Assembly: GCA_001724175.1 (NCBI GenBank)
Contig: MEDT01000048.1
Coordinates: forward strand, 1-46,617
Direction: 5' to 3'
Length of the DNA stretch: 46,617 nt
DNA from: Cytophagaceae bacterium SCN 52-12
Lineage (GTDB): Bacteria; Bacteroidota; Bacteroidia; Cytophagales; Spirosomataceae
The translations under genes were made by a program, and so were the position numbers. The notes under the pieces were generated by a model that ran no database searches, had not been told where the DNA came from, and saw only the letters and a program-made list of their open reading frames with translations. This document shows, one piece after another, positions 32,951 to 46,617 of the stretch; within the stretch, counting starts at the first letter, position 1, and each line of letters begins with the position of its first letter.

Positions 32951-32999
32951 CAAAAGAAGGCCCGGCATTCAGTTTTCCTGAATGCCGGGCCTTCTTTTG
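32951..32999. terminator. Perfect 22-bp terminator hairpin after the barrel-like gene
   Basis: Arms 32951-32972 and 32978-32999 are fully complementary with a 5-nt TTTTC loop. A-rich left end and T-rich right end (CTTCTTTTG) make it a bidirectional intrinsic terminator. It insulates the downstream GntR-SusCD locus. Confidence 0.9.
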
Positions 33000-33019: not shown

Positions 33020-33051
33020 TTGTTGCAGTTATAAATTAATTTTTACATTTG
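33020..33051 (+). promoter_or_regulatory. Promoter for the GntR regulator and possibly the SusCD locus
   Basis: TACATTTG (33044-33051) matches TAnnTTTG exactly; TTG at 33020-33022 is 21 bp upstream. AACAATAAAAAATTGTT (33009-33025) is a palindrome overlapping the -33 box and is a possible operator. Confidence 0.6.
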
Positions 33052-33078: not shown

Positions 33079-33792
33079 ATGAGAGAAGATTTAAAGACAA
33101 TTACGCTTGTTGACCAGCTTGAGGAAAAGCTTTTGCAATACATTCAGAGCTCGGATCTGAAGGAGGGTGATCCGCTGCCTTCCGAGTTTTTTTTCGCCGA
33201 GAAGTACAACGTCAGCAGGAACCTTGTACGGGAGAGCCTCAGCAGGTTGAAAATGCTGGATGTCATTGAATCCCGCAGGAAAAGAGGGATTGTAGTGAAG
33301 GAATCCAATCCTATGGCCAATTTCGTCAAGGTGGTCAAGCCCAATCTTCTGAGCGAACGCTCCATGCTGGACCTGATAGAGCTGCGTTGCGCGATGGAGA
33401 TCGGCATAGTGCCGATGATATTCCGGAACATCACGGACGAAGACATCAACGACCTGGAGGCGATCGTCAATAATGAATCCTATTCCAACGGGTACCGGGT
33501 CGGACCCGAAAGCGAAGCGAAGTTCCACACCCGGATTTACAAGATTGTGAATAACCAGGTCCTGCTCTCTTTCCTCAACGTGGTAGTGCCGATTTTTGCC
33601 TATACCAGCAGCAATTTCTCACAGTACGAGAAATTTACCGAAGAGCTGAAAAAGGCGAATAAAAACGTCAACCATAAAGATTTACTAAAGCATTTGAAAG
33701 ACAGGAACGAGGAGGGGTATAAGGTTGCGATCGAACATCACCTGCTGCCTTATGTGAACTATGTTCATGCTAGGAAGCAGACAATTGGCTAA
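33079..33792 (+). CDS. FadR-subfamily GntR transcriptional regulator
   Basis: 237 residues. Residues ~8-75 form the GntR winged helix (LKEGDPLPSEFFFAEKYNVSRNLVRESLSRLKMLDVIESRRKRGIVV, in part), and ~95-230 the all-helical FCD ligand-binding domain (LIELRCAMEIGIVPMI, KFHTRIYKIVNNQVLL, YKVAIEHHLLPYV) with His residues in metal-site positions. FCD regulators usually bind sugar acids or related carboxylates, which fits a locus containing a lyase of the sialic acid aldolase group; NanR belongs to the same subfamily. It likely represses the following SusCD operon until the inducer is bound. The gene is followed after 81 bp by susC, with a hairpin between. Confidence 0.92.
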   Translation: MREDLKTITLVDQLEEKLLQYIQSSDLKEGDPLPSEFFFAEKYNVSRNLVRESLSRLKMLDVIESRRKRGIVVKESNPMANFVKVVKPNLLSERSMLDLIELRCAMEIGIVPMIFRNITDEDINDLEAIVNNESYSNGYRVGPESEAKFHTRIYKIVNNQVLLSFLNVVVPIFAYTSSNFSQYEKFTEELKKANKNVNHKDLLKHLKDRNEEGYKVAIEHHLLPYVNYVHARKQTIG

Positions 33793-33798
33793 AAAAAA

Positions 33799-33826
33799 AT
33801 GAGCGAGGATGGCGGTCCTCACTCAT
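33799..33826. other. Hairpin between the GntR gene and susC
   Basis: ATGAGCGAGGA (33799-33809) pairs with TCCTCACTCAT (33816-33826) apart from one C-A mismatch; loop TGGCGG. An A-run precedes it on the + strand and no T-run follows, so on this strand it is more likely an attenuating or mRNA-stabilising structure than a terminator. No consensus promoter is seen between it and susC. Confidence 0.6.
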
Positions 33827-33873
33827 CAAAATAGATTACCTATTCTTAACTCAAACAGATAAAATGCAAAGTT

Positions 33874-36800
33874 ATGAATTCCCGTTTACTTTCAAAAGTC
33901 CCCCGGGTGCCGGGGGCGCATCCGGTTTTCCGAATGCTTCTTACCCTGCTGTGCTGCATGACCGCGTATGTGCTGTCGGCACAGCCCGTACAGGTAAAAG
34001 GCAAAGTAACCGACAGTCACGGTGAGCCCCTGATAGGGGTTAATATTTTAAGTGAGCAATCAGGAACAGGTACCATTACCAACCCCGAGGGTTTATTTGA
34101 GTTGGCTGCCGAAGCCGGAGACTGGCTGACTTTTTCCTTCATCGGCTACACGGCGCAGCGTATACAGATAACGAACCGTTCCGAGCTGTCTGTCGTGCTC
34201 GAGCAGCAGGCCAATGCCCTCGACGAAGTGGTGGCTGTAGGCTACGGTCAGCAGTCCCGGCGCTTTGTGACCGGCGCTGTCTCGAAGATTACGCCCGAAT
34301 TGATCGTAGACAGGCCCGTTTCCAATGTGGTTTCCGCCTTGCAGGGGAAGGTGGCAGGCGTCAATATTTTCAGCCAGAATTTTGCGCCGGGTTCCACACC
34401 CAATATCCGGATACGCGGCGGGTCGTCTATCAACTATTCCAATAACCCCCTGGTCATTATCGACGGCGTTCCCAGATCGATGACCGACATAAATCCCAAT
34501 GACATCGAGTCTATCGAAGTATTGAAAGATGCCTCTGCCACCGCCGTATACGGAGCCAGGGCCTCAAACGGGGTTGTTTTGATTACTACCCGTAGAGGTA
34601 AGGTAAGCCAGAGGCCTGAGATCGTCTTTCAATCGAGCATGAGCTACCAGCAGCACCATAAAGGCTACCCGCTGGTGAGCGGGGAGGAGTTCATCCGGTT
34701 GATACGGACCAATGCGGTAGGCTCCCCTTTTGAAAGCACGCTGTACGAAGACGGCCCTGCCAGCCACGTCAATGGCGACCGGTCGGTCTTTACGCCGAGA
34801 TGGCTGGAAGCAGGGGAAGCCGTTCCCGCCGGATGGCAGCAGATGACCGATCCCATCTTCCCGGATAAAACCATCATATTCCAGGAAAATGACCCGGTCG
34901 ATCTTTTGTTCAAGCCAGGCTTATGGCAGAATTATCACCTCGGAGCCACGGGTGGATCCGAAAAAATACGGTATGCCGGCAGCGTCGGGTATACCAGCGA
35001 CAATGGGACCGTAGCGGAGACCGGCTGGACCAGGCTGAGCATGGCGTCGAACGTGGACATCGATATAACCGACAAGCTGACATTCTCTTCAGGGGTGGGT
35101 TATACCAATACCCGGAATCCTACGGAATCATCATGGGTCAATTCGATAGGAAGGCAGCTGATCATGGCGCCGACCTGGCGCATAAGATACGACGACGGAA
35201 CGCCTGTGCCCGGCTTCAATGCGACTGCAACCCCGCCCCCGTTCTGGCGCGAAACCCGGGATTACGATCAATACCAGACAAGGCTCAATCTTGACGGGAG
35301 CCTGATATTCAGGCCATTGGAAGGATTGATGCTGAAGGGGAACGCATCTTATTACAGGTCGGATTTCGAAGACGAGTATTTTGAGAAATCGCACTTTTTC
35401 GCCCAGAACAGGAATGCCTATACCAACCAGAATATAGGCCAGACCCGGCAATTGGAGGCTATTGCCTCTTACAATACCAAGATCGGCGGAAGCCATGACA
35501 TCTCGTTTATGGCCGGCATATCCGATCTCTTCATATCATCAAGAGAACTGAGCCTGAGGGCCGACGGGGGCGCTACCGATATTATCCCTACACTGAATGC
35601 CGCTCCGAACAAGATAAACGCTTCTTCAGTTAAAACCGAAGAGTCGCTGATCGGGATGTTCGGCCGGATCGGTTATATTTATGAAGGAAAGTATCTTTTC
35701 CAGGCCTCTCTGAGAAGAGACGGCTCTTCCAAGTTCGGAGCGGGAAAAAAGTGGGGCTATTTTCCCGCGGTCTCTGCCGGATGGATTGTGAGCGAGGAGC
35801 CATTTATGAAAGATGTCGCGATGGTTGATAATCTTAAGCTTCGTGCCAGCTATGGTTTTACGGGCAATAACGCTATCGGTCCCTATACAGCCCAGGGGGC
35901 GTATAGCAGCGTACGCTATGCGCGTCAGGCAGGTCTTCGCGCCACTGCCATTCCCAACCAAAACCTGGGCTGGGAAAGGACGGGTCAGCTCGACGCAGGC
36001 ATCGATGTGGGGGCTTTCAGGAGGAAGCTGAATATCTCCTTTGACTACTATACGAAAATAACCGATAACCTCCTGTTCAGCAATCCTTTGCCCAATACTT
36101 CAGGCTTTTCTTCCATTACCACTAACATCGGCTCTGTAAAATTTTACGGAGTGGATCTCAGCGCGGAAGGGACGCTTGTGCAAACAGCGGATTTCAGCTG
36201 GAAACCGCGGCTTATTTACAGCCTGAACAGAAATGTCGTCCTGAAGCTTCCTGAAAATGACCGGGATAAAAACCGGATCGGGGGGTATTCCGTTCCGGGC
36301 GGAGACGACTTCGGCGGCATAGCCGAGGGAGAGCCGCTCAACAGCATCATCGGTTACAAGGCAGACTACATTATTGACAACCGGCAGCAGGCTGAAAATG
36401 CCCGTTATGACGAGCTGGCCCTGGGGATCAGCCTGGAGGACGGGACGGCCGTCAAAGGCAGGAAATTCCCGGGCGACTACGAATGGGCAGACCGCAATTC
36501 CGATGGTATTATCAATGAATACGATCAGTTTGTGCTGGGATATACCGTTCCGCATACTACGGGAGGTTTCGGTAACATGTTTTCATGGAAGGGTTTTGCC
36601 CTGGATATTTTTGTGGATTTTGCCCTTGGGCATTCTGCCATGGACAGGTACTGGATGTATTACAACAGCAATGCATTTGTAGGCAGGACCCGTCCGACAA
36701 AATATGTGCTGACGGATTCGTGGGAGAAAGAGGGCGACGCCGCTACAGCTTCCCTGCCTAAATTCTATGTGCAGGACCAGGGTATGCAATCCAATTATTA

Positions 36801-37068
36801 CCGGGACAGCGACCAGCGGACCTGGAAGCTGAACTACCTGTGCCTCAGGGAGGTAAAGCTTTCGTATGACCTTCCTCGTAGCTGGTTAAACCGGTCAGGG
36901 ATCAATAGCGTCAATATATTTGTCGCAGGCAACACCCTGGCTTACTTTACGAAAGAACGCCACGCCAGGGAGATCAATCCCGAATGGGGAACGACCAACA
37001 CCTATGACGCCGGGGCAGGGTATCCGGCGGTAAGAAAATTCAATTTCGGACTCAGAGTGGCACTATAA
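33874..37068 (+). CDS. SusC/RagA-type TonB-linked outer-membrane transporter
   Basis: 1064 residues. Signal peptide ~1-36 (ends VLSAQP); carboxypeptidase-D regulatory-like domain ~38-110 (VKGKVTDSHGEPLIGVNILSE, in part); the SusC linker LDEVVAVGYGQQ at ~116-126; plug domain ~128-240 (NPLVIIDGVP, NPNDIESIEVLKDASATAVYG); 22-strand barrel to the terminal FNFGLRVAL. There is no STN domain, so it is not a sigma/anti-sigma transducer. It imports oligosaccharides bound by its SusD partner across the outer membrane with TonB energy. It heads the transport and degradation genes of a probable sialic-acid-type locus; the gap to susD is 14 bp. Confidence 0.97.
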   Translation: MNSRLLSKVPRVPGAHPVFRMLLTLLCCMTAYVLSAQPVQVKGKVTDSHGEPLIGVNILSEQSGTGTITNPEGLFELAAEAGDWLTFSFIGYTAQRIQITNRSELSVVLEQQANALDEVVAVGYGQQSRRFVTGAVSKITPELIVDRPVSNVVSALQGKVAGVNIFSQNFAPGSTPNIRIRGGSSINYSNNPLVIIDGVPRSMTDINPNDIESIEVLKDASATAVYGARASNGVVLITTRRGKVSQRPEIVFQSSMSYQQHHKGYPLVSGEEFIRLIRTNAVGSPFESTLYEDGPASHVNGDRSVFTPRWLEAGEAVPAGWQQMTDPIFPDKTIIFQENDPVDLLFKPGLWQNYHLGATGGSEKIRYAGSVGYTSDNGTVAETGWTRLSMASNVDIDITDKLTFSSGVGYTNTRNPTESSWVNSIGRQLIMAPTWRIRYDDGTPVPGFNATATPPPFWRETRDYDQYQTRLNLDGSLIFRPLEGLMLKGNASYYRSDFEDEYFEKSHFFAQNRNAYTNQNIGQTRQLEAIASYNTKIGGSHDISFMAGISDLFISSRELSLRADGGATDIIPTLNAAPNKINASSVKTEESLIGMFGRIGYIYEGKYLFQASLRRDGSSKFGAGKKWGYFPAVSAGWIVSEEPFMKDVAMVDNLKLRASYGFTGNNAIGPYTAQGAYSSVRYARQAGLRATAIPNQNLGWERTGQLDAGIDVGAFRRKLNISFDYYTKITDNLLFSNPLPNTSGFSSITTNIGSVKFYGVDLSAEGTLVQTADFSWKPRLIYSLNRNVVLKLPENDRDKNRIGGYSVPGGDDFGGIAEGEPLNSIIGYKADYIIDNRQQAENARYDELALGISLEDGTAVKGRKFPGDYEWADRNSDGIINEYDQFVLGYTVPHTTGGFGNMFSWKGFALDIFVDFALGHSAMDRYWMYYNSNAFVGRTRPTKYVLTDSWEKEGDAATASLPKFYVQDQGMQSNYYRDSDQRTWKLNYLCLREVKLSYDLPRSWLNRSGINSVNIFVAGNTLAYFTKERHAREINPEWGTTNTYDAGAGYPAVRKFNFGLRVAL

Positions 37069-37082
37069 AAGGAATTACACCG

Positions 37083-38519
37083 ATGAAAAAAATAACAATG
37101 TTAGGCTTGTCGATGGCGCTCCTGGTCGGCTCTTCCTGCTCGAAGATTGAGCTGGCCCCGATCAGCACCATTGCAACAGGATCGATGTGGCGGACGGCCG
37201 ACGATGCGCTTTCGGCGAAGATCGGGATGTACAATCTGTTCAGAACGGCGTTTGCAGACAATTACCAGTGGTATACCGAATCCCGCACAGGGTTCTATAC
37301 CTTCGGAAGGTCGTTTTACGAGCGCTACAGGGCCCATTTCGACAACCGCCTGGATGCGGCTTCCCTGGGTTCGGACTGGAATGACTTCTATACGTTGATC
37401 AACCAGTGCAACCTGATCCTGAAATATGTTCCGCGTATAGACTTTACCGATGCGCAGCAGCAAAACCAGATTTTGGCTGAAGCCTATTTTATCAGGGCCT
37501 ACACCTATTTCTGGCTGGTGAGAATATGGGGAGAAATCCCGGTGCTGACCGTCCCTTTTGAGTCCGACGACCAGGAAAACCTGTATCCCGTCAGGGATCC
37601 TGAATCAATGGCGTGGGACCTGATTAAAAGTGACCTGGCGCAAGCTGAATCGCGGTATCCGGCCGGGCGGACCCAGCCGGCTTATCTGGCGAATCCCGGC
37701 GCGATCCTGATGCTGAAAGCCGATGTTTATTTATGGCTGCACAAGGTAAGAAAGGAAGCAGGAGCGCTCGCGACGGCCGAGGCTGCTGTTAATTCCGTTT
37801 TATCGGGCCAGTCTTACCAGTTGGAAAGCAGCTTCAGAGCGGTGTTCAGGAATGAATCAAACCGCGAGAATATTTTTACGATCTATAGGGAAGCGGAGGA
37901 AAGCGGCAGCAGCTGGTTTAACCTTACCATCTGGCGGGATGGGGATGTGCCGGTACAATATCATAACAACCCGGTGCCGGTAGGAGCGGACAACGTATAC
38001 GCCTTTTCGGACCTTGCCTGGAACCTGCTGTATGAGGATCCGGCAGATCAGAGAGCCGTTGAAACGATAGACAGCCTGGTCATTCCTCCCAACAGGGTTT
38101 TTCAATGGGGCGTGAAATATTCGGGCGAATATACAAGCCAGAGAAGGTGGGACCAGGATCAGCATGTCTACCGCTTTGCCGAAACCCTGATGTTTAAGGC
38201 GGAAATAGAGAATGAAAAAGGGAATTCCGCTTCTGCGGTTGAGTTTATCAACCGCGTGGCCCAAAGGGCCTACGGGAAAAGCGCCTACTATGATGCCGCC
38301 TTGTCGAAAGAAGAGGTCGATGAGGTGATATTGAAGGAAAGAGCCAAGGAGTTCTTTTTTGAGGGAAGGTACTGGTGGGACCTGATCCGTTTCGGTAAGG
38401 TTTTCGAAAAAGTACCGTCTTTGAAGGGCCGCGAAAATGAACAGAATGTATTGCTGTGGCCTGTGGCTTACAATACGATCAACAGGAATAACAAGATCGT
38501 TCAGACTCCCGGGTATTAG
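37083..38519 (+). CDS. SusD/RagB-family glycan-binding lipoprotein
   Basis: 478 residues. Lipoprotein signal MKKITMLGLSMALLVGSSC with a Cys at residue 19, then the SusD TPR-like fold: EAYFIRAYTYFWLVRIWGEIPVLT and the C-terminal block KERAKEFFFEGRYWWDLIRFGK followed by LLWPVAYNTINRNNKIVQTPGY. It is anchored on the cell surface, lids the SusC barrel and binds the incoming glycan. Its usual partner SusC is directly upstream. Confidence 0.97.
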   Translation: MKKITMLGLSMALLVGSSCSKIELAPISTIATGSMWRTADDALSAKIGMYNLFRTAFADNYQWYTESRTGFYTFGRSFYERYRAHFDNRLDAASLGSDWNDFYTLINQCNLILKYVPRIDFTDAQQQNQILAEAYFIRAYTYFWLVRIWGEIPVLTVPFESDDQENLYPVRDPESMAWDLIKSDLAQAESRYPAGRTQPAYLANPGAILMLKADVYLWLHKVRKEAGALATAEAAVNSVLSGQSYQLESSFRAVFRNESNRENIFTIYREAEESGSSWFNLTIWRDGDVPVQYHNNPVPVGADNVYAFSDLAWNLLYEDPADQRAVETIDSLVIPPNRVFQWGVKYSGEYTSQRRWDQDQHVYRFAETLMFKAEIENEKGNSASAVEFINRVAQRAYGKSAYYDAALSKEEVDEVILKERAKEFFFEGRYWWDLIRFGKVFEKVPSLKGRENEQNVLLWPVAYNTINRNNKIVQTPGY

Positions 38520-38540
38520 CAGCTTCTAATAATTTGACAC

Positions 38541-40559
38541 ATGAAGATCATAAAAACAGCCGTATACTTATTCATATTGGTTTTCCTGGTGGGTTATTCC
38601 CGGACAGGCACCGCGCAGGCTGCCCGCGACAGCATACAGGTCAGGAAGATCTGGAGCAACGGGTTTCACAATGCATTTACTTCTCTCCTGTATTTTGACA
38701 AGTATTTCTACTGCTCTTTCCGGCAGGGAAGCGGCCACGTAGGCGGAGATGACGGAGTCGTACAGATCATCCGGTCGAAAGACAGGGTAAACTGGGAATC
38801 TATAGCCGTGCTGAAAAAAGAGGGCTATGACCTGAGAGATCCCAAGCTATCCGTCACGCCCGATGGCAGGATCATGGTCATCATCGGCGGCTCGGTTTAT
38901 GACAACCGGAACCTGGTGAGCCGGCTTCCCCACGTATCTTTCTCCAACCGCTCGGGCAGCAATTTCTCGCATCCGCAGCCCGTCAGCATAGATTCCCGGA
39001 TAAAGACCGATACTGACTGGCTATGGCGGGTAACCTGGCACGGAAAAACGGGATACGGAGTGATTTACAGGTTGCCCCGGAAAATTTCCCTGGTAAAGAC
39101 CACCGATGGTATCAGCTATGAACTGGTAAAGGATTTCGAGGAAGTGGACCAGGATCCGAATGAAACCACCGTCCGTATCGCCCCGGGCGGGGAAATGTTC
39201 ATGATGGTCAGGCGGAGGACGGGGAAAGGGCTCTGGGGAAGGAGCATGCCGCCTTACCGGGATTGGAGCTGGACGGATACGGGGATCGATTTCGGCGGCC
39301 CGGACTTTGAAATGGTCCGCGATGACCTTTTTATTGCCGGAACAAGGGTCTATGAGAAGCCCGTTTACACCGGTATTTACCTGGCCGATAAAAAGGGACG
39401 GTTCCGGAAGATTTTCCGGCTGCCGTCGGGAGGAGATAACAGCTATCCCGGGTTTGTAGTGGCAAAGGACAGGATATACATGTCCTACTACTCTTCGCAT
39501 GAAGGTAATGCTTCGGTTTACCTGGCGGAGATACCGATGTCTGTTATCGATGAAGCTTTAAGCGCTCCTCCCGTTATCGAATCGGGGATGATATGGGATC
39601 AGGCGCCGCATAACGCGTTTACGGACCTGGCCCGCTTCAAAGGTAAATTTTATTGTGTATTCCGCGAGGGAGGCTCGCATGTGAGCGGCAACGACGGCAG
39701 CATCAGGGTCCTGGCTTCGGACACCGGTGGGGAGTGGGCGTCCGCTGCCCTGATCCGGGAAGAAGGGATCGATCTCAGGGACCCGAAATTGTCCGTCAAC
39801 CCTGACGGCAGGCTCATGATCATGTGCGGAGGCTCTAAATACGAAGACAAGGCGGTCAGGGAATGGCATACCAGGGTCCTTTTTTCGGAAAACGGTATCG
39901 ACTGGACGCCGCCGATGCGGATCACCGGCGTCCCTTCCAACAACTGGGCTTTCGGAATTACATGGAAGTCGGATACCGGGTTTATAGCGCCAAGGATATG
40001 CAGGACCGATCCTCAGACCATGCAGGTAGATCAGACGGGTACTCAGATAAAAGTGTACAAAACATCGGATGGGTTGAATTATGAGCCGGTAAGCGAAGAC
40101 ATAACCGCCGGTAACTTCGAATGCGGCAAAGGGTGCGGAGAAACCTCCATCAGGTTCAGGGACGACGGATCGATGGTGATCCTGGCGCGTCTGCCGGGCA
40201 AGGGGAAGTTCCTGTTCGGAGCACCTCCCTACGAAAAAGGATTTACTACGGCAGACATCGATCACGGTATGGGAGGACAGGCTTTCTTACCGCTCGAAAA
40301 CGGGTACTGGCTTATCGGGACGAGGGAATATGCATATGAAAGGCCGGGCGGCAGAGCCGGCACCGCCACTGTCCTGCTGGCGGCAGACGAAAACGGTATT
40401 TACAAAAGAGTAGCCGAGCTTCCTTCCGGCGGAGACACAGCCTACCCGGGCATGTTGAAATACAACGGGGAATTGTGGATGTCGTATTATTCTTCGCACG
40501 AAGGGAAATCAGCCATTTACATGTCCAGGATTCCGCTTGCAGGGCTACGGCCGAGATAA
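38541..40559 (+). CDS. Secreted protein of two tandem sialidase-like (BNR/propeller) modules
   Basis: 672 residues with a signal peptide (ends GTAQAA). Two homologous modules are plain: residues ~35-332 and ~349-665. Each begins HNAFT, continues FYCSFRQGSGHV or FYCVFREGGSHV, then DLRDPKLSV-PDGR and I/M-GGS-Y-, and ends LPSGGD, YPG, MSYYSSHEG and a final I-P. Degenerate Asp-box strands occur (SKDRVNWE, SENGIDWT, TSDGLNYE). Conserved arginines (about 61, 99 in module 1; 375, 413 in module 2) are candidates for carboxylate binding. It resembles proteins annotated as exo-alpha-sialidase family in Bacteroidota and Planctomycetes, which normally have a single module. It probably releases or binds a sialic-acid-like terminal sugar in the periplasm. 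It is 21 bp after susD, in the same operon. Confidence 0.82.
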   Translation: MKIIKTAVYLFILVFLVGYSRTGTAQAARDSIQVRKIWSNGFHNAFTSLLYFDKYFYCSFRQGSGHVGGDDGVVQIIRSKDRVNWESIAVLKKEGYDLRDPKLSVTPDGRIMVIIGGSVYDNRNLVSRLPHVSFSNRSGSNFSHPQPVSIDSRIKTDTDWLWRVTWHGKTGYGVIYRLPRKISLVKTTDGISYELVKDFEEVDQDPNETTVRIAPGGEMFMMVRRRTGKGLWGRSMPPYRDWSWTDTGIDFGGPDFEMVRDDLFIAGTRVYEKPVYTGIYLADKKGRFRKIFRLPSGGDNSYPGFVVAKDRIYMSYYSSHEGNASVYLAEIPMSVIDEALSAPPVIESGMIWDQAPHNAFTDLARFKGKFYCVFREGGSHVSGNDGSIRVLASDTGGEWASAALIREEGIDLRDPKLSVNPDGRLMIMCGGSKYEDKAVREWHTRVLFSENGIDWTPPMRITGVPSNNWAFGITWKSDTGFIAPRICRTDPQTMQVDQTGTQIKVYKTSDGLNYEPVSEDITAGNFECGKGCGETSIRFRDDGSMVILARLPGKGKFLFGAPPYEKGFTTADIDHGMGGQAFLPLENGYWLIGTREYAYERPGGRAGTATVLLAADENGIYKRVAELPSGGDTAYPGMLKYNGELWMSYYSSHEGKSAIYMSRIPLAGLRPR

Positions 40560-40579
40560 GAGCACCAAAATATCAGAGC

Positions 40580-41335
40580 ATGTTAATACGATCACTAAAG
40601 ATTCTGGCGGCTTTCACAATGCTGACAGGTTGCACAGTGCAAAAAAAACCGCGATACGATATCATTCTCTGCATCGGCCAGTCCAACATGGCTGGAAGAG
40701 CGGCGATGGCGCCTGCTGATACAGTCCCGTTGCAGCACGTGTTTTTATTCAATGAAAAGGATGAGTGGGAGCCGGCAAAGAACCCCTTGAACCGGTATTC
40801 TACCATTCGCAAGGAGATATCCATGCAGCGGCTCGGACCGGCCTGGACTTTTTCGAAAAGCCTCGTCGATGCATATCCCGGGAAAAACTTCGGACTCGTG
40901 GTGAATGTGCGGGGAGGAACGTCTGTAGACCTGTGGAGAAAAGGCAGCCATTACTACAACGAGGCCGTCATAAAAGCGCTCAAGGCTCAGAAAACGGGTA
41001 CCATCATAGGCGTCATCTGGCACCAGGGTGAGGCCGACAGGAATAAATGGGAAGGCTATACCGGGAAATTCTCTGACATGATCGCGCATTTGAGGCAAGA
41101 TCTGGGGATCCCGGATCTGCCGGTCGTGGTGGGGGAAATCGGGGATTGGAAAGGCAACTCCGGGTCGGTCAACGGGCAGATCCGGGCCATCCCGGGTAAG
41201 GTCCCTTTTACGCGGTGCGTGAGTGCAGACGGGCTGATGCACATGGGAGACACGCTCCATTTCAATACCGAAGCGCAGTATGAGCTGGGAAGAAGGTATG
41301 CAGCGGAGCTCATTCAACTGCTCAGGGTACGATAA
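40580..41335 (+). CDS. SASA-domain lipoprotein, sialate O-acetylesterase-type SGNH esterase
   Basis: 251 residues from ATG at 40580; the longer frame overlaps the preceding gene and has no conserved sequence. Lipobox FTMLTGC (Cys18). Active site: ILCIGQSNMAGR (Ser35), VVNVRGGTSVDLW, VIWHQGEADRN (the H-Q-G-E block of the family) and DTLHFNTEAQYELG with the C-terminal catalytic His. This is the sialic-acid-specific acetylesterase (SASA, PF03629) fold, which removes O-acetyl groups from sialic acids or from xylan-type glycans. In this locus, next to a sialidase-like protein and an N-acetylneuraminate-type lyase, de-O-acetylation of sialic acid is the likely role (inference from context). It is 20 bp downstream of the sialidase-like gene. 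Confidence 0.85.
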   Translation: MLIRSLKILAAFTMLTGCTVQKKPRYDIILCIGQSNMAGRAAMAPADTVPLQHVFLFNEKDEWEPAKNPLNRYSTIRKEISMQRLGPAWTFSKSLVDAYPGKNFGLVVNVRGGTSVDLWRKGSHYYNEAVIKALKAQKTGTIIGVIWHQGEADRNKWEGYTGKFSDMIAHLRQDLGIPDLPVVVGEIGDWKGNSGSVNGQIRAIPGKVPFTRCVSADGLMHMGDTLHFNTEAQYELGRRYAAELIQLLRVR

Positions 41336-41360
41336 AATAGCTGGTAACCTTATCTTACAC

Positions 41361-42050
41361 ATGAAACATTTTAAAATATGGCTGATTATTCTCCCTGTTT
41401 TGGGAGGAGCCTGGATCTGGCCGCAGCGGCTCCCCTTATGCTTTTTGATCGGAGACAGCATTTCAGTGCACTACAGACCTTACCTGGAAAAATTCCTGGA
41501 AGGGCAGGTACGCATCGAGAGAAAAAACGGCGATGAGGAGGCCCTGAAAAACCTCGATATACCGGCGGGAGCGAGCGGCGGAGATTCCAGGATGGTGCTC
41601 GATTTCCTGGAAGCGAAAATAAAGGATCCGTCGTTCAGGCCGGATTTCTTTCTTTTCAATTTCGGGTTGCACGACATTAAACGGAATCCGTCGAACGGCG
41701 ATCTCCAGGTCCCGCCGGATCAATATGAAGCCAACCTGAAAAAAGTGATCTCTCTCCTTAAATCGAAAAATATAAAGCCTGTCTGGATCAGGACGACGCC
41801 TGTCATGGACAGCCTCCACAACAGCCGGCAGCCTTCCTTCAGGAGGTATGCCAAAGACCTGGAAATATACAACAGGGTGGCCGACCAAACCTGTAAGAGC
41901 GAGCACGTACCGGTTATAGATCTGTATTCTTTCACAGTTAAGCATATTCCCCGCCATTATATAGATCACGTCCATTTTGACGAGGAGACACGCGCCTTGC
42001 AGGCCGCTTTCCTTGCCGGGGCGCTTCTAGGGCTGATGGCAGACAAGTGA
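41361..42050 (+). CDS. Small SGNH/GDSL hydrolase with N-terminal membrane anchor or signal
   Basis: 229 residues from ATG at 41361 (MKHFKIWLIILPVLGGAWIW, one hydrophobic segment). SGNH blocks: FLIGDSISVHY (nucleophile Ser33), GASGGDSRMV (Gly), FNFGLHDIKRN (Asn in the usual N-block position, but with N-F-G rather than G-x-N) and DHVHFDEE (Asp/His). It is a periplasmic esterase of unknown substrate, likely a second deacylase acting with the SASA-type lipoprotein. It lies 25 bp after the SASA gene. Confidence 0.8.
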   Translation: MKHFKIWLIILPVLGGAWIWPQRLPLCFLIGDSISVHYRPYLEKFLEGQVRIERKNGDEEALKNLDIPAGASGGDSRMVLDFLEAKIKDPSFRPDFFLFNFGLHDIKRNPSNGDLQVPPDQYEANLKKVISLLKSKNIKPVWIRTTPVMDSLHNSRQPSFRRYAKDLEIYNRVADQTCKSEHVPVIDLYSFTVKHIPRHYIDHVHFDEETRALQAAFLAGALLGLMADK

Positions 42051-42109
42051 TTTCCGGGGAATTAAACCAATAAAAAGAAAAGATGCATAGCATCGACCCA
42101 TTCTGTAGC

Positions 42110-42127
42110 CCCCGACTTCAGTCGGGG
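42110..42127. repeat. CCCCGAC-TTCA-GTCGGGG hairpin element
   Basis: Perfect 7-bp stem with TTCA loop, in the 127-bp gap between the SGNH gene and the lyase. The form CCCCGACTTCAGTCGGGG is a hairpin I recall as recurrent between genes in Bacteroidota. No T-run follows, so it is more likely an RNA-stability or REP-type element than a terminator. Confidence 0.6.
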
Positions 42128-42177
42128 CGGACGGGGGCGAATGATTGAAACACAATTAGTTAATTTTTTTTAAATAC

Positions 42178-43104
42178 ATGAAAGACAACCGTTTTACCGG
42201 GTTGATCGTGGCGACATTTTCGCCATTTGACCCCAAAGGGAATTTATATCCGGATGGAATCAGGGACTATGCGGAGTACCTCGTATCAAAAGGTGTCAGC
42301 GGGGTGTTCGTCTGCGGGACTTCCGGGGAGGGCTTGCTGCTGTCGGTAAGCGAGCGCATGCAGTTGCTCGAAGCGTGGATGCCTTATCAAAAGCATCTGA
42401 AGATCATTGCCCATGTCTCGACCCCGAATTATGTTGAAGCTTCTGTCTTGGCCGGGCACGCCGGGCAAGTCGGCGTAGACGCCATTGCCTGTATGGGACC
42501 GTGCTATCTTCCGCCGAAAGATCCGGAGGAGCTGGTTGAATTCAATCGTATTGTCGCCGCATCGGCGCCTGACATTGCCTATTATTACTATCATATGCCC
42601 CTGGTATCGGGAGTGCACATTAAGATGAACCAGTTCCTGAAAAAGATCGGGGACAGGATCCCGAATTTTTCCGGTATAAAGTTTACCGCCCCCGATATGA
42701 TGGACATGCAGGAATGCATACTAATGGATGGCGGGAAGTATGATATTCTACACGGGAGCGATGGGATTTTTTTAAGCGGGCTTACCGCAGGAGCGAAAGG
42801 GGGAATAGGGACTTCCTTTAATATCATTCCAGATGTCTTCCAGGAGATCATACAGGCGTACGAAGCGGGTAGCATAGAAGAAGCCCGGGAGCTGCAGATG
42901 CAGGCCGTCGGCGTTTTGAAAATCCTGCACAAGTACGGAGGATCGGTGGTCAGTACGAAGGCGATACTGAATATGATGGGCTTCGAGCTCGGGCCGTGCC
43001 GGCTTCCCCTGAAGAATCTTTCCGGGAATGAGCTTCTGGAATTGAAAGATGAACTGAATGCCATAGGTTTTTTTGACCGGTTTAAATATGCGGAAAATAG
43101 CTAA
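42178..43104 (+). CDS. N-acetylneuraminate lyase-type aldolase (DHDPS/NAL superfamily)
   Basis: 308 residues forming a TIM barrel. The class I aldolase residues are visible: FVCGTSGEGLLLS (the G-T/S-T/S-G-E carboxylate loop), YYYYHMPLVSGV (catalytic Tyr138) and PNFSGIKFTAP (Schiff-base Lys168), with LPLKNLS near the end. The YYYHxP motif, PCYLPP stretch and GPCRLPL tail resemble vertebrate-type neuraminate lyases more than DHDPS. It would cleave N-acetylneuraminate or a relative to ManNAc and pyruvate in the cytoplasm. Other members of the superfamily act on different 2-keto acids, so the exact sugar is not certain. The following symporter start overlaps its end by 17 bp. Confidence 0.87.
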   Translation: MKDNRFTGLIVATFSPFDPKGNLYPDGIRDYAEYLVSKGVSGVFVCGTSGEGLLLSVSERMQLLEAWMPYQKHLKIIAHVSTPNYVEASVLAGHAGQVGVDAIACMGPCYLPPKDPEELVEFNRIVAASAPDIAYYYYHMPLVSGVHIKMNQFLKKIGDRIPNFSGIKFTAPDMMDMQECILMDGGKYDILHGSDGIFLSGLTAGAKGGIGTSFNIIPDVFQEIIQAYEAGSIEEARELQMQAVGVLKILHKYGGSVVSTKAILNMMGFELGPCRLPLKNLSGNELLELKDELNAIGFFDRFKYAENS

Positions 43105-45520
43105 CGCGGTTGTCGTGGCCTTCATTTTGTTCCCCGGTTCCGGCTGCTTTCGCGGCAGTGACGATCAAACGGGGAAGGAGATCGCTGTTTCCAGGCTTGA
43201 GGAGGGGCTCGGTTCCGATTATTTCTGGGTCCGTGTCCACGCCCGTGAATTCCTGGCTCAGCTGCACCCCGGTATACAGACAGATACTTCATTCCGTGCT
43301 TTTTTAAAACAGCATGAGGCAATCCCCGGGGAGCGTATAGGGGCCTGGCGCGTTGGAGCGATGGCCGGTCCGGAGCATGATAAGGGCCGTTTCCTGGATA
43401 AAATAAAGGAAGCATACCTCGACACGGCCGGTACGGACAGGCTTCATGCGGCGGAGTCTCTGGCAAAGCTCGGTGTTGCTATAAAGGATATGCCCGGAGG
43501 AGTGATTCAAAGTGATATCGATTCAGGAGGGAAAATAAAGGGGTATATCCTCTGGGGATTATCGCTGCCGGCGACTCAGGATGCGGCGCCGGATTATAAA
43601 ATGCTTCTGGACGAATTTAAGAAAGGGGATGCCGGTACCTGCGAGTCGATTGCTTACGCGTTGACGAAGCTGCCTGCCCGTATGCCGGCGGAAGTATGGG
43701 AAGAGGTCAGGGAGCTCGCTACGGACAATCGCTGGTCAGAATTTGTAAGAAACAGGCTCAAATTGGCGCTATTCCTCAATTCAGAGAATCCTGGCCAGCG
43801 TGATGCGCTTAAAAAAGAAGTCGTGGATTTCCTTCAAAACGAGGATAAACGTTTGCAATATGCAGCTTGCGAAGCCCTTGCAGCTAAAGGAGACCGTCAT
43901 GATATAGCAGCGCTGGCAAAGATGGTGACGGATGAGCAGCCTGTCGGGCCCGGCAGCGAAGCCGATCCCGGTTTGGTCAAAGCTCATGCCGACGTCAGGA
44001 TCGCAGCGGCTTTTGCCTTGCTGAGCCTCGATAAGCAGACTCCCCGGAGCCCTTCCGGGTTAAGCGACCTGGATTGGGTAGTTATTGTGCTCTTCCTGGT
44101 CTGGATGGTAGGGATAGGCTTCTTTTATTCGATCAAATCGAAAAACAGCGATGACTATTTCCTGGGAGGGAGATCGATGAACCCGATCATGGTCGGTCTT
44201 TCGCTCTTTGCAACGCTGCTGAGCACGCTGAGCTACCTGGCCTATCCGGGTGAAATGATCAAGTACGGGCCGATGATGTTCTTCGGGATATTGGCTTACC
44301 CGATTGCCTATTTTCTTATCGCCCGGTTTATCATCCCGCGGATCATGGAGCTCAATGTCACGAGCGCCTATGAAATACTGGAGCTGAAGCTGGGCGCCAA
44401 GGTCCGCGACCTGGGGACCGTCTTTTTTCTGCTGCTCAGGTTTTTATGGATGGCTACCATTATTTATGCCACGATCAATACGGCGCTGATCCATATCCTG
44501 GGCTTTAGCCAGGACTTCGTACCGTGGGCCTGCCTGCTGCTATCCCTGATCACCGTTTTATATACAACCATGGGAGGGATGAAGGCGGTAGTGCTCACAG
44601 ATGTTATACAGTCGGTGATCATGTTTGCCGGAGCGGTTTTTACGATCGTTGTCATTTCTTTTGACTTCGGAAGCCTGACGGAATGGTTTCCGAAAAAATG
44701 GCTGCCGCATTGGCAGGAGATTACCTGGAAAGTAGACCTGAACCAGCGCATGACCGTCGGCAATATCATGGTGATGGCGCTCCTCTGGAAAGTCTGTACT
44801 TCCGGCTCTGACCAGATGGCGATACAGCGCTACCTGTCGACCAGGGATATTGCTTCGGCGAAGCAGTCCCTGAAAACATCCTTGTGGTCGAGCGCCGTAT
44901 TGCAGATCATCCTGGCGGTATTGGGGCTGGCGCTGGCGTCCTTCTTCCTGAAGCACCCGGAATCTCTCGGACCCGGGACAAGCGTATATGAAAATGCAGA
45001 CACGCTCTTTCCCAGGTTTATCCTGATCGGGCTGCCGGCGGGCATGACCGGCCTCGTGGTCGCAGCTCTCATGTCGGCCGCGATGTCAAGTTTATCATCC
45101 GGTCTTAATTCCTCTTCTTCAGTAATTTACGAAGATATCTGGATCAGGTATTTTCCCGGGTTCATGAAGCATATGCATCCATTGCAAAAAGTACATTGGA
45201 TTTCTGCGATTATGGGGGTAACGGTTTCGGTATGCAGCATGTTCGTAGGACATATCGAGGGTAACCTGCTGGACGTGGTTAATAAGGTAGTCAACCTGGT
45301 AGTGGCCCCGCTTTTTGTCTTATTCTTTATGGCTTTGTTTGTTCCGGGCGCGACGGAGACAGGGACTTTCTGGGGCGGGTTATTTTCGCTATTGATAGCC
45401 GTTTTAATAGCCTTTTTTGATTTTCTCAATCTTGGTGTCCTGATGATCCTGCCCGTTTCACTGGTCAGCGGGATTATCATGAGCACTTTATTAAGTTTTC
45501 TGAGCCGTATCCGTACCTGA
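43088..45520 (+). CDS. Sodium:solute symporter with N-terminal HEAT-like domain
   Basis: 810 residues from ATG at 43088 (MRKIANAVVVAFILFPGSGC, a lipoprotein-like or membrane-anchor signal); an ATG-less extension upstream is in the lyase gene. Residues ~25-325 are soluble and carry HEAT-like repeats (DRLHAAESLAKLGVA; LQYAACEALAAKGDRHDIAALAKM; ADVRIAAAFALLSL). Residues ~328-810 are a complete sodium:solute symporter (SSS) with about 12-13 helices: YFLGGRSMNPIMVGLSLFATLLSTLSYLAYPGE (in part), TTMGGMKAVVLTDVIQ, and LVVAALMSAAMSSLSSGLNSSSSV, the sodium-site region. It should import the sugar released outside. If the first segment is a signal, the HEAT domain is periplasmic. It forms an overlapping pair with the lyase, so sialic-acid-type substrate is inferred. 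Confidence 0.88.
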   Translation: MRKIANAVVVAFILFPGSGCFRGSDDQTGKEIAVSRLEEGLGSDYFWVRVHAREFLAQLHPGIQTDTSFRAFLKQHEAIPGERIGAWRVGAMAGPEHDKGRFLDKIKEAYLDTAGTDRLHAAESLAKLGVAIKDMPGGVIQSDIDSGGKIKGYILWGLSLPATQDAAPDYKMLLDEFKKGDAGTCESIAYALTKLPARMPAEVWEEVRELATDNRWSEFVRNRLKLALFLNSENPGQRDALKKEVVDFLQNEDKRLQYAACEALAAKGDRHDIAALAKMVTDEQPVGPGSEADPGLVKAHADVRIAAAFALLSLDKQTPRSPSGLSDLDWVVIVLFLVWMVGIGFFYSIKSKNSDDYFLGGRSMNPIMVGLSLFATLLSTLSYLAYPGEMIKYGPMMFFGILAYPIAYFLIARFIIPRIMELNVTSAYEILELKLGAKVRDLGTVFFLLLRFLWMATIIYATINTALIHILGFSQDFVPWACLLLSLITVLYTTMGGMKAVVLTDVIQSVIMFAGAVFTIVVISFDFGSLTEWFPKKWLPHWQEITWKVDLNQRMTVGNIMVMALLWKVCTSGSDQMAIQRYLSTRDIASAKQSLKTSLWSSAVLQIILAVLGLALASFFLKHPESLGPGTSVYENADTLFPRFILIGLPAGMTGLVVAALMSAAMSSLSSGLNSSSSVIYEDIWIRYFPGFMKHMHPLQKVHWISAIMGVTVSVCSMFVGHIEGNLLDVVNKVVNLVVAPLFVLFFMALFVPGATETGTFWGGLFSLLIAVLIAFFDFLNLGVLMILPVSLVSGIIMSTLLSFLSRIRT

Positions 45521-45586: not shown

Positions 45587-46617
45587 CTACCTGCTCAGGT
45601 ACAAATTCCTCTCCCCGTATACTTTCTGAAAGAAATCGTCCGTGAGGTCTTCTATAAAATAGATCGCTTCTCCTGTAGACTTCATTTCAGGTCCGAGCTC
45701 TTTATTGACGTTCGGGAATTTATTAAAGGAGAACACCGGTATTTTAATAGCCCATCCGTTTTTATAGGGATTGAACTTGAAATCCGATATCTTCTTCACG
45801 CCGAGCATCAGCTTTGAAGCGTAGTTGACATAAGGTTCGCGGTAAGCCTTGCTGATGAAAGGCACGGTACGCGACGCTCTCGGGTTGGCTTCGATCACGT
45901 ATACGATGCCGTCCTTAACCGCAAACTGTATATTGATCAGGCCTTTGACCTGCATAGCCTTCGCTATTTTTTTGGTATGCTCTTCGATCTGCCTGATCTC
46001 GTCGGCGGAGAGGCCGAAGGTCGGCAGGGCCGCATGGGAGTCGCCGGAGTGGATCCCGGCAGGCTCGATATGCTCCATGATCCCGATAATGTAGGAATCT
46101 TCCCCGTCGCAGATAGCGTCGGCTTCCGCTTCGATAGCGCCTTCCAGGAAATGATCGAGTAGTATGGTATTGTCGGGGATGTCCTGGAGGATTTTGATGA
46201 CATGCTGTTCAAGCTCCTGCTCGTTGATGACGATCTTCATGCTTTGTCCGCCCAGTACATAGCTTGGCCTTACAAGAAGAGGGAACCCCAGCTCGCGGGA
46301 GAGTTCGGCGGCGGCGTCGGAAGTCCTGACGGTGCCGAATTTGGGATAAGGAATATCGAGATCTCTCAGCAAAGCCGAAAAGCGACCCCTGTCCTCAGCC
46401 CAGTCGAGGGAGTGAAAGCTGGTCCCGATTATTTTAATGCCGTATTTATCCAGTTTCTCGGCCATTTTCAAGGCTGTCTGGCCGCCAAGCTGCACGATGA
46501 CCCCTTCGGGTTTTTCATGCTCTATGATGTCGAAAACATGTTCCCAGAACACCGGCTCAAAATAAAGCTTATCTGAAATATCGGGGTCTGTAGATACTGT
46601 CTCGGGGTTACAGTTGA
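45587..46617 (-). CDS. carB: Carbamoyl-phosphate synthase large subunit (CarB), C-terminal part, 5' partial
   Basis: The frame runs off the right edge; a GTG at 46552 is internal, since NCNPETVSTDPDISDKLYF precedes it in frame. The visible part covers the second (carbamate) ATP-grasp half: GVIVQLGGQTALKMAE, FPLLVRPSYVLGGQSM, HIEPAGIHSGDSHAALP, and NIQFAVKDGIVYVIEANPRASRTVPF (in part). It makes carbamoyl phosphate for pyrimidines and arginine with CarA. It ends ELGPEMKSTGEAIYFIEDL, then ERNLYLSR, with no methylglyoxal-synthase-like allosteric domain; E. coli CarB has ~130 more residues. As I recall, this short form is usual in several Bacteroidota, so it is not a truncation. Confidence 0.96.
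   Translation of the reverse strand, partial: NCNPETVSTDPDISDKLYFEPVFWEHVFDIIEHEKPEGVIVQLGGQTALKMAEKLDKYGIKIIGTSFHSLDWAEDRGRFSALLRDLDIPYPKFGTVRTSDAAAELSRELGFPLLVRPSYVLGGQSMKIVINEQELEQHVIKILQDIPDNTILLDHFLEGAIEAEADAICDGEDSYIIGIMEHIEPAGIHSGDSHAALPTFGLSADEIRQIEEHTKKIAKAMQVKGLINIQFAVKDGIVYVIEANPRASRTVPFISKAYREPYVNYASKLMLGVKKISDFKFNPYKNGWAIKIPVFSFNKFPNVNKELGPEMKSTGEAIYFIEDLTDDFFQKVYGERNLYLSR

Follow-up and report, generated by a model that had tools for sequence, protein, structure and literature searches.

A candidate PUL-type operon for a sialic-acid-class sugar, likely other than plain Neu5Ac, in a Cytophagaceae MAG

Which sugar is consumed through an operon that brings together a sialidase-like protein, two esterases, an aldolase of the N-acetylneuraminate lyase (NAL) type and a sodium symporter, with no epimerase (NanE or AGE) or kinase gene found between positions 33079 and 45520? 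The question is posed by a contig (MEDT01000048.1) of Cytophagaceae bacterium SCN 52-12, whose 46,617 nucleotides are the window analysed here; the source genome is a 5.12-Mb MAG, 79% complete. According to a review, the specificity of sialate aldolases has been studied mainly on Neu5Ac (PMC10017367), and the locus offers a bounded, testable gene set for the bacterial use of non-Neu5Ac sialates.

Organisation and genomic setting of the operon

Eight intact genes on the + strand follow one another from 33079 to 45520, preceded by promoter- and operator-like elements:

33044-33051, +: TACATTTG, Bacteroidota-type -7 promoter element; the same element stands before the operator-like motif in loci L043 and L057, and variants of it in L042 and L007
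33066-33078, +: TATGTAGGGCATA, operator-like motif abutting the GntR start codon; TGTAGGRCATA is common to six GntR-NAL operons
33079-33792, +: GntR/FCD regulator, NanR-like (Pfam GntR and FCD; top NCBIfam model NanR, NF003011, 76.9 bits, below the cut-off of 260)
33874-37068, +: SusC/RagA TonB-dependent transporter (TIGR04056, 804 bits)
37083-38519, +: SusD lipoprotein, closest model NanU (NF033072, 165 bits, below the cut-off of 425)
38541-40559, +: secreted tandem sialidase-like propeller (N unit 38625-39560, C unit 39573-40556)
40580-41335, +: SASA/CE6-type esterase lipoprotein with an LTGC lipobox (PF03629, 189 bits, 8.6e-56)
41361-42050, +: second SGNH/GDSL esterase with a signal-peptide-like N terminus (PF13472/PF00657)
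42178-43104, +: NAL-type aldolase (DHDPS/NAL; N-acetylneuraminate lyase model, 5e-47)
43088-44038, +: HEAT-repeat domain with a lipoprotein-type signal, N-terminal part of the symporter
44048-45520, +: SSS sodium symporter (SSF; closest solved structure SiaT, 5nv9)

This co-directional set, given in a preliminary description together with intergenic gaps of 14, 21, 20, 25 and 127 bp and a 17-bp overlap of the NAL and SSS genes (NAL end 43104, SSS start 43088), was reproduced in full from the reading frames; the gap between GntR and SusC measures 81 bp. Two features went unmentioned there, namely the HEAT domain with its lipoprotein-type signal on the symporter and the closeness of SusD to NanU, a sialate-binding protein. 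Pfam and NCBIfam assign a family to every gene except the propeller, for which no significant match was obtained, and the GC content of the operon is level throughout. Upstream, near 32962, a T-rich tail follows an inverted repeat rich in GC, and a convergent carB at 45587 faces the 3′ end of the operon. The 127-bp gap 5′ of the lyase gene contains a perfect inverted repeat (CCCCGACTTCAGTCGGGG, 42110-42127), which is a possible attenuator or partial terminator.

By its gene content the locus is indeed a PUL of the sialic-acid or nonulosonate type, as had been proposed. The same genome carries, on contig C3, a canonical nan locus comprising SusCD, an AraC-type regulator, NanR, NAL, NanM, an MFS transporter (NanT), AGE and a GH33 that contains YRIP and Asp boxes; the activity of NanM is sialate mutarotation. 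In addition, a paralogue of the window locus is found on contig C183, with GntR, NAL, a HEAT lipoprotein, a single propeller, SusC and SusD. A single genome can thus house the canonical nan locus alongside a pair of distinct propeller-NAL loci. Because of the nan locus on C3, with its own GH33, NanM, NanT, NAL and AGE, the absence of epimerase and GH33 genes from the operon is not informative alone and was rejected as a stand-alone argument against Neu5Ac; the weight first laid on the missing epimerase and kinase is further reduced by the sister operons, which likewise have no epimerase gene. The proposed search for NanE, NagB or AGE elsewhere returned AGE (on C3 only) and NagB-family genes, while no NanE scored above the cut-off in the genome. 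NeuB, for nonulosonate synthesis of its own, gave no match in this 79%-complete MAG.

In comparison with the canonical nan PUL of Bacteroidota (NAL and AGE of Bacteroides fragilis, nanOU of Tannerella), the operon has in common a NanR-like GntR/FCD regulator, a NAL-class lyase, SusCD and a secreted propeller, whereas AGE, NanM, an MFS transporter and a GH33 with RIP are absent from it. Its own features are the HEAT-SSS protein, the non-canonical tandem propeller, two esterases and a different operator-like motif. The SusD of the C3 locus reaches only 43 bits with the NanU model.

The lyase, the hydrolases and the symporter

The lyase retains the Schiff-base Lys, Tyr137, Thr167, Asp191 and the GxxGE loop (as GTSGE), features that it shares, together with the fold family, with E. 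coli NanA and with the NALs 6h4e and 5afd, which are its closest solved relatives; its scores against KDG aldolases are lower. Unlike these NALs, it has Gly for Glu192 and Ser at position 190 in E. coli numbering (codons GGG at 42763-42765 and AGC at 42757-42759). As two separate codons differ, a sequencing error is unlikely to account for the change. Position 192 is Glu in 19 lyase homologues, one Gln excepted, and a search of 390 genomes from the order and 395 from the class turned up no close ortholog with S190/G192. E. coli NAL uses its Glu192 to bind O8/O9 of Neu5Ac, and significant Neu5Ac cleavage is seen with Glu or Gln only, these position-192 data being confined to the E. coli scaffold (PMC3014015). 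Side-chain specificity is known to depend on this residue, where the window lyase has its natural G192/S190 change, and the pocket is probably open at its C8/C9 end. A Mariniphaga NAL (L040:20260-20942) carries QEQ at 190-192, as against the usual YDE/HDE; it lies about 9 kb downstream of a propeller sister to the N unit of the window protein, in a locus that has a sulfatase.

The 672-aa protein described as a tandem sialidase-like protein does consist of two such propeller units. The AlphaFold model of the N unit (pLDDT 96) has the six-blade sialidase fold, with 5hx0 as the top Foldseek match, followed by GH33 sialidases; 5hx0 is Dfer_1899, a protein of unknown function from Dyadobacter, a genus of the same family as Larkinella. 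The reported absence of a RIP motif holds for the whole propeller family in a 60-sequence alignment, where an HNAFT/S-type sequence occupies the place of the (F/Y)RIP Arg. In what is, by spacing, the acid/base region, an invariant His that aligns to His45 of PA2794 stands instead of Asp. E180, R196, R241 and Y274 are invariant in the 60 sequences, and their order and spacing presumably correspond to the Glu, two Arg and Tyr of GH33, as in PA2794; in an hhalign comparison with the GH33 of the same genome, only E180 and R196 were aligned, at low probability. The invariant set is present in both units. With respect to GH33 sialidases, the fold is alike and the order of these four residues may match, whereas the RIP Arg is missing, His apparently replaces the acid/base Asp, the units are in tandem and no Pfam sialidase model matches significantly; we single out here a family of propellers whose active site is altered. 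PA2794 (2w38/3h6j) is the sole PDB sequence match, a weak one (E 3e-5 single, 0.005 profile), and is termed a pseudaminidase, with docking as support.

As to the esterases, the closest solved structures to the SASA protein, 2apj and 1zmb, are CE6-type enzymes and not proven sialate esterases, which weakens the earlier suggestion of a heavily O-acylated target. No solved structure related by sequence was found for the second SGNH/GDSL esterase.

The symporter shares with SiaT of Proteus mirabilis (5nv9) the SSS family, the Na2/Na3 serines (SSLSS), Asp182 and Ser60. It differs from SiaT in having Trp in place of the carboxylate-binding Arg135, with an Arg three residues earlier, Lys in place of Asn247, and an extra N-terminal HEAT domain. 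The invariant polar residues of this domain (H37, E40, R69, R74, D103, H106, E109 and K113) are placed on helices that seem equivalent in successive repeats, an arrangement suggestive of a ligand site. A fold search with the HEAT domain returned generic HEAT solenoids only, none below E 0.001. The domain is conserved and tied to sialate-type transporters, and a literature search for HEAT repeats with sialic acid symporters found no prior description of a conserved HEAT partner.

Recurrence of the gene set and identity of the sugar

Scanning with the propeller alignment yielded 80 loci (1.33 Mb), which are the best-scoring matches and not a random sample, some of them from near-identical species. 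A DHDPS/NAL-family gene is present in 22 of them, against about 1.6 expected from the density in the source genome (6 per 5.12 Mb). A HEAT protein, as a separate gene or a fusion, occurs in 16 loci, and each of these also has a NanT-like MFS or an SSS transporter. The arrangement GntR-NAL-HEAT-(SSS or MFS)-propeller-SusCD recurs across Bacteroidota. Specifically, sister operons comprise GntR, NAL, a fused HEAT-SSS, propeller and SusCD in Mariniphaga sediminis; GntR, NAL, HEAT, SSS, propeller and SusCD in a Bacteroidales MAG (L057); GntR, NAL, tandem propeller, SusCD and MFS in L042; and GntR, NAL, HEAT, tandem propeller, SusCD and MFS in Larkinella arboricola, so that the tandem propeller is common to the window, L042 and L. 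arboricola. Planctomycetes propellers also adjoin NAL-family genes. Since other families and phyla show much of the same set, the grouping is far beyond chance, and the core of what had been called an unusual enzyme set is not unique to this MAG. NanM-like sequence occurs in only three of the 80 loci, all from Planctomycetes and two of them clear NanM-SSS fusions; HEAT and NanM co-occur in none of the 80. In these loci (L047:4509-7151, L051:1321-3981 and L091:3035-5758) a NanM-type kelch, weak in L091, is fused to SSS, with a member of this propeller family and a DHDPS/NAL gene next to it.

Most of the 80 loci have other neighbours, such as sulfatases and Gfo/Idh, and no aldolase, so that the propeller family, judged by its gene neighbourhoods, is broader than sialate use. 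One relative (L036:9600-10640) lies inside a cluster of glycosyltransferases and methyltransferases, a setting from which the family may also serve glycan biosynthesis or trimming.

Gene content, homology, recurrence, the motif and the residue changes, all directly observed, point to a PUL-type operon by which a sialic-acid-class sugar (a 2-keto-3-deoxy-nonulosonate), likely not plain Neu5Ac, is scavenged from glycosidic linkage, a reading to which we assign a probability of roughly 0.6. The order of steps, the sites of export, repression and the identity of the sugar would then be as follows. Outside the cytoplasm, the two esterases would strip O-acyl groups and the tandem sialidase-fold propeller would cleave the ketosidic bond; the NanU-like SusCD pair would import the acid to the periplasm, the SiaT-like Na+ symporter with its HEAT domain would move it inward, and the NAL-class aldolase would convert it to pyruvate and a sugar. 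The NanR-like GntR/FCD protein would repress the operon at the promoter site, and the substrate would be Kdn-like, or a sialate with a substituted C7-C9 chain. Against this reading, the propeller may not be sialate-specific, given the other neighbours of most of the 80 loci; the loss of SiaT Arg135 from the symporter, the restriction of the position-192 data to one scaffold and the draft state of the genomes without AGE also count against it.

The early doubt that the sugar is Neu5Ac is strengthened by the G192/S190 lyase and by related genomes without AGE or NanE. In particular, in four drafts with NAL, HEAT, propeller and MFS (G114, 98% complete; G143, 88%; L055; L062) neither an AGE ortholog nor a NanE over the cut-off was detected, so that the lyase product there is probably other than ManNAc, unless a different epimerase is at work; L062 has a second, canonical-type NAL, likewise without AGE. 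We infer that Kdn or a side-chain-modified sialate would fit the operon best, Kdn being the simplest candidate because its lyase product, mannose, needs neither AGE nor NanE. For the window copy, a pocket that is probably open at C8/C9, together with two esterases, may indicate a sialate with a modified side chain. NanA of H. influenzae participates in Kdn breakdown (PMC7845648), and a review reports both a Kdnase and an aldolase specific for Kdn in Sphingobacterium (PMC10017367). As described there, the latter system would resemble the present one in belonging to Bacteroidota and in having a sialate-type aldolase that does not use Neu5Ac, a likeness drawn from the description.

A more far-reaching proposal can be put forward only tentatively. 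The HEAT-propeller-NAL module might be a dedicated, Bacteroidota-wide pathway for a sialate with a non-ManNAc lyase product, Kdn leading, whose propeller would form a new sialidase-fold hydrolase family without the RIP Arg and the acid/base Asp. The HEAT domain, in the place of the Planctomycetes NanM, may be sialate-handling or an anomerase, and the window copy, with its S190/G192 pocket and esterases, would be suited to a side-chain-modified form.

Other explanations start from the same evidence. The AGE, NagB-family genes and canonical nan locus of the same genome, the NanU-like SusD and the esterases would all be expected of an accessory locus that feeds Neu5Ac or O-acetylated Neu5Ac into the canonical pathway and draws on the AGE of C3, the lyase change being tolerated. 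This is rather doubtful in view of the position-192 data (PMC3014015) and of the several related genomes that have the module and no detectable AGE or NanE; in L. arboricola, moreover, the neighbour of AGE, at a distance of about 2 kb, is another NAL, of canonical type, and the HEAT-propeller locus lies elsewhere. A more specific form of the preferred reading names pseudaminic or legionaminic acid, which depart from Neu5Ac at C7-C9 and would thereby suit a lyase without Glu192; a pocket that is probably open towards C8/C9 is compatible with them, and PA2794, the closest solved propeller relative, has the His of the acid/base region too. We consider a locus for these microbial nonulosonates unlikely, since the PA2794 match is weak and the activity of that protein, as far as the available description goes, relies on docking, while Glu192 is kept in the sister lyases and the operon has no dedicated enzyme for a di-amino sugar product.

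The propeller might instead cut another ketosidic or uronic linkage, with the aldolase of a KDG-like, 2-keto-3-deoxy-acid type and the likeness to sialate systems a matter of distant ancestry. Most propeller loci have no NAL, Larkinella and Chitinophagaceae propellers are paired with a remote DHDPS protein, Gfo/Idh, SDR or PhyH, and a weak, sub-threshold match to GH43 exists. This explanation appears quite improbable, as the lyase has its closest relatives among true NALs and scores lower against KDG aldolases, the SSS protein is nearest to SiaT and SusD to NanU, and NanM-SSS fusions adjoin the propeller in Planctomycetes.

The operator-like motif and regulation

In each of the six GntR-NAL operons (window, L007, L042, L043, L044 and L057), TGTAGGRCATA either lies at the GntR start or shortly precedes it, with a TAnnTTTG-type promoter element near it in most of them. 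TAnnTTTG, by which TACATTTG was identified, is the consensus of the Bacteroidota-type -7 element. Whole-genome matches to TGTAGGRCATA number five, a count attainable by chance, and three of the five are at GntR genes. The C3 nan locus has another inverted motif, TATGTATAAC, and this difference suggests that the window operon and the C3 locus are regulated separately. The motif also stands 5′ of GntR in another PUL of the same genome, on contig C116, which weakens it as a sialate-specific signal. This GntR/FCD gene, the third to be preceded by the motif (L133, G000:C116:12000-18629), has as neighbours a 556-aa protein without a Pfam match, a TonB-type gene and a lantibiotic-dehydratase-like protein.
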